From: Akkermansiaceae bacterium
GTDB lineage: Bacteria > Verrucomicrobiota > Verrucomicrobiia > Verrucomicrobiales > Akkermansiaceae
Direction of reading: 5' to 3'
Length of the DNA: 64,000 nucleotides
Assembly: GCA_013041925.1 (NCBI GenBank)
Contig: JABDRB010000012.1
Coordinates: 124,001 to 188,000, forward strand
In this document: positions 57,318 through 61,372 of the stretch, piece by piece
Position numbering within the stretch: the first letter of the stretch is position 1
How the letters are laid out: each line of letters starts with the position of its first letter
Made by a program: the position numbers and the translations under genes
The notes under the pieces: model-generated
What the model was told of the DNA's origin: nothing
What the model saw: the letters and a program-made list of their open reading frames with translations, nothing else
The model's database searches: none

Positions 57318-57584
57318 ATGAACGAAGAATCTTTGGTCGATTCCCTGCTCCCCGCCGTCGAGCAACAACTCGAATCACCTCAAACACCCTACGTGCTAGA
57401 AACCTTCACCCGACTCGTCGAGAAGGATCAACTCCCCCCCGATGAAGCCAAACAACTCATCGCCATCTGCCTCGCCGATGAGTCAAACCGCATGTTCATC
57501 GAGAAACGCGACTTCGATGTCGTGCGCTACCAACAACTGCTCGAGAGCCTCCCTGGCGACCCCGACACGTCAGCCAGCACGTAA
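57318..57584 (+). CDS. Small conserved soluble protein
   Basis: 88 residues. Acidic and helical with no signal peptide. The pattern YVLETFTRLV ... DEAKQLIAICLADESN ... FDVVRYQQLLESLP recurs in small hypothetical proteins as I recall, but I can attach no function. It starts 19 bp after the RidA gene and is probably the last gene of the kdsB run. Confidence 0.6.
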   Translation: MNEESLVDSLLPAVEQQLESPQTPYVLETFTRLVEKDQLPPDEAKQLIAICLADESNRMFIEKRDFDVVRYQQLLESLPGDPDTSAST

Positions 57585-57630
57585 AACCATCGCCCCCATC
57601 CATCGGGTCTGACTCATCAGAACCACCACC

Positions 57631-59745
57631 TTACTTGATCGGTCTCCTGCTCTTGGTCGCGAGCGGGAGTTGCTTGCCTTGGTCGTCGGTGATGTCAAAA
57701 GACAGGGCAGCTTGGCCTGCGCCCATACGGACGAGTAATTGCACGGGATGCCAGCCCGCTTTCAGATGGAGCGTTCCGCTTCGGGCATTGCCCGTGGGTT
57801 TCTTATTTTCTTTAAGCAAGCGGATGTCGTGGACAAAAAGCATCGTGTGGCTGTTGCTGGTGACGTTGAAGGTGTAGCTGCCATCGACAGGAAATTGAAC
57901 CAAGGCTTCGAGCATGACCGCAAAGTTTTGTGTGATGCCATCGGGCAAGACAAAGCTGCTGAGCTGATGCGGGTTCGATCGTTTTGCCTGGCGCAGATCG
58001 GGCATCCACGGGAACGCCCCCTGACGGATCACACAATCGACCCCTGCGAGTTGGGGCGCGGGCACGGCACTGGGAACAGCAAGGGCAAGGGTCGGCGGAA
58101 TCGGAGCATGATCATAGGGGCGGGGAGCGCTGGCTAAGGCTCTGCGACATTGCAACGCGCGGGCTTTCATCCTTTTCTGAACATCATCGAAGCCATTTTC
58201 GCCAGCGAGGTTGTGTTTTTCTTGGGGGTCCTTGATGAGGTGGTAGATTTCAAAGTCGTCATCAGCCGATTCAATACCAGTGCGCAGGCCTTTGTAATGA
58301 TCGACAAAGACGACCTGCATTTGACGGCGGATTTTACCGCGATGCGACGGGTGGAAGGCATCGTAACTTGGCGTTTTGCCAGGCACGGAATATTCGCTGT
58401 AGATCGTGCTAGGCTCTTGCTCGCCCTGACCACTGAGAGTGGGCATGAGCGAGACACCATCTGAGCTGGCGGGCGTGGGGACGCCAGCTGCCTCCGCGAA
58501 CGTCGGGAGCCAATCCCAGTGACCACTCGGGCGGGATGCCCTGCGGCCGGCTTTGATCATGGCGGGCCAATGGGCGATGGTAGGCACACGCAGCCCCCCT
58601 TCAAGGGTGTCGCGCTTGATACCATCAAAGGGGCCAAAGCCATGGAAGAAGGTAGGCTGATACGGGGAGCCTTTGATGTATGACTCTTTTGATGGCCCGT
58701 TGTCAGAGCTGAAGATCACCAGTGTGTTCTCAGACAGATTCAGATCCTTGAGCAGAGACATGAGGTCGCCAACGCTGTCATCAATGCGCCGCACGTTGTT
58801 GGCGTAGCGGCGTTGGACGTCAGGCCATGGCTGCTCGGCTGTCTCGGGATTCTTGTCATGGTCCCAAGTAGCCTTGGCGTAATCCGGGTGCATCCAAGCA
58901 TCATACTTCCCCATGGCGGTGTTGATCATCCCCCCTTTTTTACCGATCCACTGGACACCGGCATGAATGCCACCGCCATCGGGGTAGGCGCAGGGCGGGT
59001 TTTGCAGTTTGGCGTGCGGGGTGTCGTAGGCGAGGTAGGCGAAAAATGGTTGCGTCGGGTTGTTCTCCGTGTGCTCGATGATCCATTTTTTGGTGGCGGC
59101 CGTGAACAGGTCGGTGGTGAAGCAGAGTTCCATACCCTCTGAGATCTCCGTCGTGTTTTCCCAGATTTGTTTTTGGTCTTCCACTGGGTAGTGGTAGTGG
59201 CCGTCGCGGTGTCGCACATAGCCGAGAAAATAGTCGAAACCACGATCCATCGGCATGGTCGGCCAGTCCGGAAAGACCTGCCCAGGTGGTGTCGGTTTGC
59301 GGTTCTTGCGATCTTCTTTTTTCCCCTGGAGGCCCCATTTGCCAAATGCTGCCGTGGCATATCCCGCTTCTTTCACGACCGATGCAAGCGTGTGCGTATC
59401 GGGGAATGCTTGGTCGAACTGGTTGTCGCGTCGACCCGAGTGGCCTTGGTGCTGACCGCTGAGGAGAGTGGCGCGTGACGGGGCGCAGACGGGAGCCCCG
59501 CAGTAATGTTGATCGAACTTCATGCCCTCATTCGCTAAGGCATCGATATGAGGCGTGGTAAAAGAGGGAACGTTCCGGTCATGTTGGGCGGATCGTTTGT
59601 TCTGGTGAAAGACACCGAGGTCGCCGTAGCCGAGGTCATCACAAAAAATGAGCAGGATGTTCGGTTGTTTCGCTTCAGCGGCTTGGCATGGCGGGATCCA
59701 TCCAACAGCGAGGGTGGTGGTAATAAGGCAGATGAGATACTTCAT
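57631..59745 (-). CDS. Secreted type I sulfatase
   Basis: 704 residues with signal peptide (about 1-22, CQAAEA cut site). It hydrolyses sulfate esters, probably on sulfated polysaccharides. The metal site is PNILLIFCDDLGYGD (D36, D37). The formylglycine motif C87-A-P-S-R91 in APVCAPSRATLLSG needs a cysteine-oxidising maturase, absent from the window. The sulfatase core runs to about 540. A C-terminal beta-sandwich-like stretch (GSYTFNVTSNSHTMLFV ... LKAGWHPVQLLVRMG, about 630-690) resembles PA14 domains. It follows the SatP gene on the same strand across 188 bp. Confidence 0.92.
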   Translation of the reverse strand: MKYLICLITTTLAVGWIPPCQAAEAKQPNILLIFCDDLGYGDLGVFHQNKRSAQHDRNVPSFTTPHIDALANEGMKFDQHYCGAPVCAPSRATLLSGQHQGHSGRRDNQFDQAFPDTHTLASVVKEAGYATAAFGKWGLQGKKEDRKNRKPTPPGQVFPDWPTMPMDRGFDYFLGYVRHRDGHYHYPVEDQKQIWENTTEISEGMELCFTTDLFTAATKKWIIEHTENNPTQPFFAYLAYDTPHAKLQNPPCAYPDGGGIHAGVQWIGKKGGMINTAMGKYDAWMHPDYAKATWDHDKNPETAEQPWPDVQRRYANNVRRIDDSVGDLMSLLKDLNLSENTLVIFSSDNGPSKESYIKGSPYQPTFFHGFGPFDGIKRDTLEGGLRVPTIAHWPAMIKAGRRASRPSGHWDWLPTFAEAAGVPTPASSDGVSLMPTLSGQGEQEPSTIYSEYSVPGKTPSYDAFHPSHRGKIRRQMQVVFVDHYKGLRTGIESADDDFEIYHLIKDPQEKHNLAGENGFDDVQKRMKARALQCRRALASAPRPYDHAPIPPTLALAVPSAVPAPQLAGVDCVIRQGAFPWMPDLRQAKRSNPHQLSSFVLPDGITQNFAVMLEALVQFPVDGSYTFNVTSNSHTMLFVHDIRLLKENKKPTGNARSGTLHLKAGWHPVQLLVRMGAGQAALSFDITDDQGKQLPLATKSRRPIK

Positions 59746-59851
59746 GTTCTTGAGTGGTCGTCAATGTAGTGACAACCAAGAAACCCGCCAAGCAGGAATG
59801 TGAATCAACTCAACATCCACCTTGCGTTTGTATGAGGATACACAGGCGACG

Positions 59852-59870
59852 GCATCCTGAATGAGGATGC
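59852..59870. repeat. Perfect 7-bp hairpin between satP-like and sulfatase genes
   Basis: GCATCCT (59852-59858) and AGGATGC (59864-59870) flank GAATG. A second short dyad, GCGCTG/CAGCGC around CCCC, is at 59897-59912. Neither has a T run on the minus strand. They may be RNA processing or weak termination signals after the transporter gene. Confidence 0.3.
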
Positions 59871-59933
59871 TTACCCCCGCCCTGCCTTCATGCTAGGCGC
59901 TGCCCCCAGCGCGGCGATTGGTGCCAACCATGA

Positions 59934-60560
59934 TTAAGCGGCTTTAGGGAGTTCACCGCAACCGCTGGGCGCGTTTTGTTTCGGCTGACCGTCTTTGATC
60001 CATGGCGCCCCCAAAGGAAGAACCGTGCGACCAAACACCTGATTGTAGATGGCACTGGCCATCATGTAGAGTGCACAGAGGGCACAGAGCATCAATTCAT
60101 ATCCCGCCACAATGGTGAGCTGAGGGAAACCAAAGTGAGCAAGATCCAACAAAATAAATCCGACCACCAGCAACGTGAAGGTCAGCGCCATCATGCCGTG
60201 AATCCGCATGGCCGGAACCCAGAGGATGAGCGTGAGCACCGTGTAACCGATCAGAAACCACCCAACGTCCGAGTGACTCGATGAATAGATTCCCAGCGAG
60301 TTGCATATAAGGATCGCTCCAAAGGCGAGCCAGAACGCACCGTAACTCACAAAGGCACAGTAGCCGAAGTTGTTCCCACATTTAAACTCCTGAAACCCTG
60401 CAATCAATTGAGCAAGACCACCAAAGACGATAGCAAGCGCAAACACCGGCCCAATACCGCACCAGCCAACGTTGTGAAATTGTAAAAGAAGGGTCGTGAT
60501 TCCAAATCCAGCAAGTCCAACGACGGCCGGGTTTCCTTGTGTATGCGTTGTAGTAGACAT
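59934..60560 (-). CDS. Acetate/succinate transporter (SatP/GPR1-FUN34-YaaH family)
   Basis: 208 residues from ATG 60560 (MSTTTHTQGN). Six transmembrane helices. The family signature NPAVVGLAGFGITTLLL opens the first helix, and GLAQLIAGFQEFKCGNNFGYCAF is the second conserved block. It takes up acetate or related monocarboxylates by proton-coupled transport or as a channel. A promoter-like pair lies 54-84 bp upstream of the ATG. Confidence 0.9.
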   Translation of the reverse strand: MSTTTHTQGNPAVVGLAGFGITTLLLQFHNVGWCGIGPVFALAIVFGGLAQLIAGFQEFKCGNNFGYCAFVSYGAFWLAFGAILICNSLGIYSSSHSDVGWFLIGYTVLTLILWVPAMRIHGMMALTFTLLVVGFILLDLAHFGFPQLTIVAGYELMLCALCALYMMASAIYNQVFGRTVLPLGAPWIKDGQPKQNAPSGCGELPKAA

Positions 60561-60941
60561 GACAATTGATCGTTTTTTAATTGAGCGGGCCATTCCCCGC
60601 AAGAAGCACCTGCGCCATAGGTTCACATGCCGATTCTGTCAACTCGCGCCTTGCATTTATCTCACTCTTTATCAAGAGGTTATAGTCGCAAAAAGCAGGA
60701 TATGCACAGCATTAAAGACATGCCACGTTGACGCCACCTCACTCGACATGGCTTGACGAAATCCACACGCCGGCCACTACGCCGCGACACTGGCAATTGG
60801 CGGAAAAATCCCCCCAGATTTCTTTTTCCTGCTTTGTGCATGTGAGTGATGCCTGTAGAATACAAAACGACTGTGTTGACCGGCATGCGCCGAGTTTCTC
60901 CCAGAATTAGACTTATTCACCTCCTACCTCCCCCCACCCCC
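60561..60941. other. 381-bp divergent intergenic region, SatP-like/repeat protein
   Basis: No gene is seen here. It holds the SatP-like promoter candidate, and on the plus strand TTGTGC (60834-60839) with TAGAAT (60856-60861) spaced by 16 bp, a possible promoter for the repeat-protein gene about 80 bp on. Pyrimidine-rich sequence precedes that gene's ATG, without a Shine-Dalgarno. Confidence 0.4.
60614..60642 (-). promoter_or_regulatory. Candidate promoter of the SatP-like gene
   Basis: Read on the minus strand, a perfect -35 TTGACA (60642-60637) is followed after 17 bp by TATGGC (60619-60614), a weak -10. Confidence 0.4.
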
Positions 60942-61343
60942 ATGCTCCGACTTATCTTTCTCACCTTGTCTCTGCTTTTTGCTGTGATTTGCACCAGTGA
61001 GGCGGACTCCTACCTACTAACGTTGAACCACAAGCGGCTTTACAAGTGGGACGGAAAATACCTGCTGACCACCAACCATCAACGGCTCTACAGGTGGGAT
61101 GGAACCTACATCATCAACACCTCCCACAAACGCCTCTATCAATGGGATGGTACGTATCTCAAGAACATGAATCATCAGCGACTCTACCAATGGGACGGTA
61201 AGTATCTCAAGAACATGAATCATCAGCGACTCTTTAAGATCAAGGACTCATTCATCACGGATATGAACCATCGCCGGCTCTATCGAATCGATGGGCATAT
61301 CCCGATAGCGCTCCTCATCGCGCTCGCCACCGGCACGTTATAA
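60942..61343 (+). CDS. Secreted protein of six 16-residue NHxRLYxWDG repeats
   Basis: 133 residues from ATG 60942 (MLRLIFLTLS), the start that gives a signal peptide (to about residue 22); the frame is open further up. Six tandem 16-residue units run from 24 to 119, with the pattern Y-L-x-x-x-N-H-x-R-L-Y-x-W-D-G-x. Tyr/Phe start, His, Arg-Leu-Tyr and Asp-Gly are conserved; the last two units have Ile in place of Trp. The protein ends in a hydrophobic IPIALLIALATGTL. I do not recognise this repeat; it is not MORN or WD40. A surface or binding role is conceivable, but no function is claimed. Confidence 0.75.
   Translation: MLRLIFLTLSLLFAVICTSEADSYLLTLNHKRLYKWDGKYLLTTNHQRLYRWDGTYIINTSHKRLYQWDGTYLKNMNHQRLYQWDGKYLKNMNHQRLFKIKDSFITDMNHRRLYRIDGHIPIALLIALATGTL
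61011..61298 (+). repeat. Six tandem 48-bp coding repeats
   Basis: Units at 61011, 61059, 61107, 61155, 61203 and 61251, each 48 bp. Units 4 and 5 share 32 identical bases in register (61154-61185 and 61202-61233), so this pair looks recently duplicated. The other units have diverged more in DNA than in protein. Confidence 0.9.
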
Positions 61344-61372
61344 TCGGTGGCAGCATGGTGGCATGGGCGACT

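Follow-up and report, generated by a model that had tools for sequence, protein, structure and literature searches.

The gene at positions 60942-61343 (+ strand) of the window, i.e., the whole 64,000-nucleotide stretch of Akkermansiaceae DNA analyzed here, very likely encodes a translated, new, and compact exported member of the already described six-fold kind of beta-flower, a fold and family assignment to which we give a probability of roughly 0.8. This assignment is based on three lines that agree, namely a sequence match obtained independently, the predicted topology, and the solved structure 1zxu as structural neighbor, since structural Z-values alone would be insufficient. Beta-flowers were discovered in 2023, from predicted structures only, and include proteins with 8, 10, or 12 strands and four-, five-, or six-fold symmetry (Durairaj et al. 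2023, PMC10584680).

Gene architecture and family assignment

The gene, delineated from its open reading frame, the family alignment, and a match to PF21786, codes for 133 amino acids followed by a stop codon. Residues 1-21 form a predicted Sec signal peptide, MLRLIFLTLSLLFAVICTSEA (60942-61004, +), identified from the sequence and the alignment, with cleavage expected before DSY. An A-D/E-S motif at the cleavage site is common to seven aligned sequences, and the predicted peptide aligns across homologues, which supports the secretion proposed in the initial annotation. DSY is followed by six 16-residue units, encoded by six 48-nt repeats on the + strand that together occupy 61011-61298: YLLTLNHKRLYKWDGK (unit 1, 61011-61058), YLLTTNHQRLYRWDGT (unit 2, 61059-61106), YIINTSHKRLYQWDGT (unit 3, 61107-61154), YLKNMNHQRLYQWDGK (unit 4, 61155-61202), YLKNMNHQRLFKIKDS (unit 5, 61203-61250), and FITDMNHRRLYRIDGH (unit 6, 61251-61298). 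The protein ends with a conserved hydrophobic C-terminus, HIPIALLIALATGTL (61296-61340, +), in which a helix is predicted at residues 122-130.

The six repeats described initially are real: across residues 23-118, lag-16 identity reached 48/80, whereas 100,000 shuffles averaged 5.7 and never exceeded 17, and the unit array was also detected by TRF. Units 4 and 5 are identical over 32 bases, exactly as reported. Among the residues originally listed as fixed within this protein, the His at position 7 of the unit is indeed present in 6/6 units, as are the Arg and Leu of Arg-Leu-Tyr, while the Tyr is found in 5/6 (Phe in unit 5) and Trp-Asp-Gly is limited to units 1-4 (4/6), with units 5 and 6 carrying IKD and IDG, respectively.

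The repeat had first been considered as belonging to an unknown family, a view overturned by its matches to the beta-flower families PF21786 (Bflower_3) and PF21784 (Bflower). The window protein matched PF21786 over residues 29-125 with 27.1 bits (E 4e-6), a score below the curated Pfam cut-off of 34 bits and, like all HMM scores here, possibly inflated by the repeats. When PF21786 was searched against the genome of origin, this gene was the sole match (26.7 bits, E 1.3e-5). A protein from a Verrucomicrobiales metagenome-assembled genome (L003/L044), 48% identical to the window protein, passed the same cut-off with 38.5 bits, and its match spanned the full length, C-terminus included. For PF21784, for which the cut-off is 25 bits, three homologues (L058, L060, and L064) scored above the cut-off, and the window protein reached only 15.1 bits. 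By eye, the semiconserved [DNEQ]xxG hairpin-tip motif can be recognized as QWDG in window units 3 and 4 only, and as EWDG in several units of L058-L060. When this family was compared by hhalign to a set of seven canonical Bflower_3 proteins, the signal peptide alone was aligned. Searches with the window protein yielded no match in the PDB sequences at E 10 and no credible match in NCBIfam. Weak Pfam matches to Tail_spike_N, DUF2850, RcnB, and PI4KB were rejected as repeat-driven noise because they covered short stretches only and differed from member to member.

Other proteins of interest were encountered in these searches. Canonical Bflower_3 proteins from the same phylum (L025-L031) carry near-perfect 20-residue repeats in which Ser-Asp-Cys recurs, so that each petal has one Cys. 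Four proteins of about 200-240 aa (L033-L035 and L038), in which other sequence interrupts the beta-flower units, are possible divergent flowers.

Predicted fold and unit number

Two AlphaFold2 runs on the window sequence, based on alignments of 4 and 12 members, gave mean pLDDT values of 87.8 and 89.6, with low confidence at the signal peptide only. Both models displayed the same twelve short strands and C-terminal helix, consistent with the initial suggestion of a beta-hairpin unit assembled into a small propeller-like object. For both, the top solved structure in VIA-align was 1zxu (Arabidopsis At5g01750, Tubby-like fold), with Z 7.9 over 102 residues (rmsd 4.6) and Z 7.5 over 103 residues (rmsd 5.0), i.e., values below 8 and within a range that, according to VIA-align, models lacking a clear match often reach; the runners-up reached Z 4.2 and 4.5. 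Foldseek returned nothing significant for either model against the PDB, with 1zxu outside the top 50, and nothing significant against viral models. 1zxu is also a structure named for structural comparison in the beta-flower paper (PMC10584680).

We read the predicted C-terminal helix as a putative plug of the barrel. Alternatively, the protein could be membrane-inserted, with this segment anchored in the membrane rather than in its own barrel: conservation extends to the C-terminus IPIALLIALATG, which is strongly hydrophobic, and Tubby-like relatives act at membranes (PMC10584680). However, the predicted helix of 8-9 residues is too short for a bilayer span, and a C-terminal hydrophobic helix is described as enclosed in many, but not all, beta-flowers (PMC10584680), which makes a membrane anchor improbable.

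In the barrel model, the protein would be exported through the Sec pathway and the signal peptide then presumably removed, after which each 16-residue unit would fold into a single hairpin of two strands that turns tightly at W-D-G and at the N-H/G-K/Q position. Joined in a ring, the predicted strands of the six hairpins would make up a shallow antiparallel barrel of 12 strands, and the predicted hydrophobic helix IPIALLIAL would fold back and plug its channel, as suggested by the fold family. The six-unit count would then be fixed because it sets ring closure.

Across the family, exactly six units were found in 12/12 complete members, whether these units comprise 16 residues (window protein, L003, L058-L060, and L064) or 17 residues (L022, L023, L048-L050, and L056), and the hydrophobic C-terminus with its helix was conserved in the 12 members. 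Such a constant number is expected for a closed ring and is not explained by an open solenoid. This argues against two earlier proposals, namely that the repeat might form a solenoid and that its copy number may vary, which together would correspond to an open beta-solenoid or surface adhesin with a repeat number drifting between strains. The DNA identity of units 4 and 5 and the near-identical units of L003 do show unit exchange or duplication, but the six-unit count holds across the 16- and 17-residue versions, the C-terminus is conserved, and 1zxu is the best solved match of the AlphaFold2 models, so that we consider an open array quite unlikely. One near relative of L003 (L046:3953-4240) displays four units and is cut by a contig end; a second fragment (L051:3-188) lies on another contig of the same genome, and L057/L065 show a similar pattern. 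This four-unit copy is probably an assembly collapse in the repeat, and was on this ground left out as repeat-number variation.

In several proteins, units 1-4 were more similar to each other than to the units at the same position in other proteins (1.00 vs 0.70 for L003), indicating that units are homogenized within lineages, yet their number stays six. At the position of the window units' His (position 7), every relative has Gly in almost all of its units, so that this His marks a turn position rather than a conserved functional residue; judging from this sequence comparison, the invariant His is peculiar to the window's species. One could also envision a minimal beta-flower subfamily of its own, nearly devoid of petals, whose six tips in this species switched together from Gly to His, so that a six-fold His ring on one face would bind either a metal or a pH-dependent ligand, although we regard this scenario as very improbable.

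Translation, genomic setting, and possible function

Next, we considered whether the frame is translated. For the mature part of the Roseibacillus/Akkermansiaceae orthologues (L048-L050), dN/dS ranged from 0.09 to 0.16, which indicates that the frame is translated in these relatives and, by inference, that the window gene is expressed as a protein. The converse, an open reading frame without protein product arising as a repeat-DNA artefact, might be suggested by two observations: around the gene, no promoter or terminator scored above chance, and 13 congeners lack the gene. Besides the low dN/dS of the relatives, however, the window units have diverged almost to saturation at synonymous sites without loss of the encoded protein, and homologues from other families of this phylum share an aligned start codon and signal peptide, so that an untranslated frame seems hardly credible.

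The family is patchily distributed, with 13/387 genomes of the order encoding it. It was absent from the 13 congeners searched, and from the phage collections, plasmid collections, and viral contigs searched, giving no indication that phages or plasmids carry it. One genome (G462) encodes two paralogous genes of this beta-flower family (L059 and L064), while a short frame in a genome from the same family (L062:1468-1698), which has four units of the SGKT-YKF type and lacks a signal peptide, represents a possible cytosolic relative. Two weak genome matches (L006 and L024) were unrelated on reading, and the rest of the weak matches among L004-L021 were considered noise on score alone.

In the window, the gene lies in a 3.8 kb block (57585-61372) along with a sulfatase (PA14-like end) and a GPR1/FUN34/YaaH transporter. 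An 88-aa gene is directly tail to tail with rbfA in 6/8 congeners inspected, and the two are 3.8 kb apart in the window, which makes the block accessory, whether through gain here or through loss elsewhere. The block has an ordinary GC content (0.54), that of the beta-flower gene being lower (0.49). No junction repeat of at least 9 bases was found at the block edges, and no tRNA or Rfam match at the locus. The 88-aa protein (57318-57584, MNEESLVDSLLPAVEQQLES...), conserved beside rbfA in congeners, had no Pfam match. Conserved gene neighbors were sought across the homologues' lineages and not found; since these neighbors differ between lineages, no partner protein can be named.

The protein may form a rigid basic disc that attaches to an anionic component of the envelope, for instance lipopolysaccharide, the head groups of phospholipids, or an acidic polysaccharide. 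We infer this binding role, as a weak and tentative guess, from the export, small size, and basic charge of the protein (pI about 9.9, and 9.1-10.1 for all members), from the lack of an obvious catalytic residue set or other sign of catalysis, and from the putative self-plugged hydrophobic channel. In the literature, we found no experiment on the function of any beta-flower. What is left to explain thereby concerns the fold family at large rather than this locus. This short, near-symmetric, natural set of 12 six-unit members, in which units are homogenized while their count stays six, lends itself to solving a first structure and to probing the requirements of ring closure and of an enclosed helix.

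Compared to known systems, the window protein resembles PF21786 Bflower_3 in its six hairpin repeats, 12 predicted strands, export, and C-terminal hydrophobic helix. However, units in the window family comprise 16-17 residues instead of about 20, and the long petal loop of canonical Bflower_3 proteins of the phylum (YKGNSTYSSDC) is shortened to W-D-G. The four-fold PF21784 Bflower proteins share a similar short hairpin unit, and three homologues exceed the PF21784 cut-off, but the window protein has six units rather than four, and its own score is low. Finally, Tubby-like/LURP-one 1zxu (clan CL0395), the best solved match of both models, consists of a 12-stranded barrel around a hydrophobic helix, as proposed for the window protein. 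It is only 7% identical to the window protein, its strands and loops are longer, and, according to the beta-flower paper (PMC10584680), its helix entry differs from that of beta-flowers.
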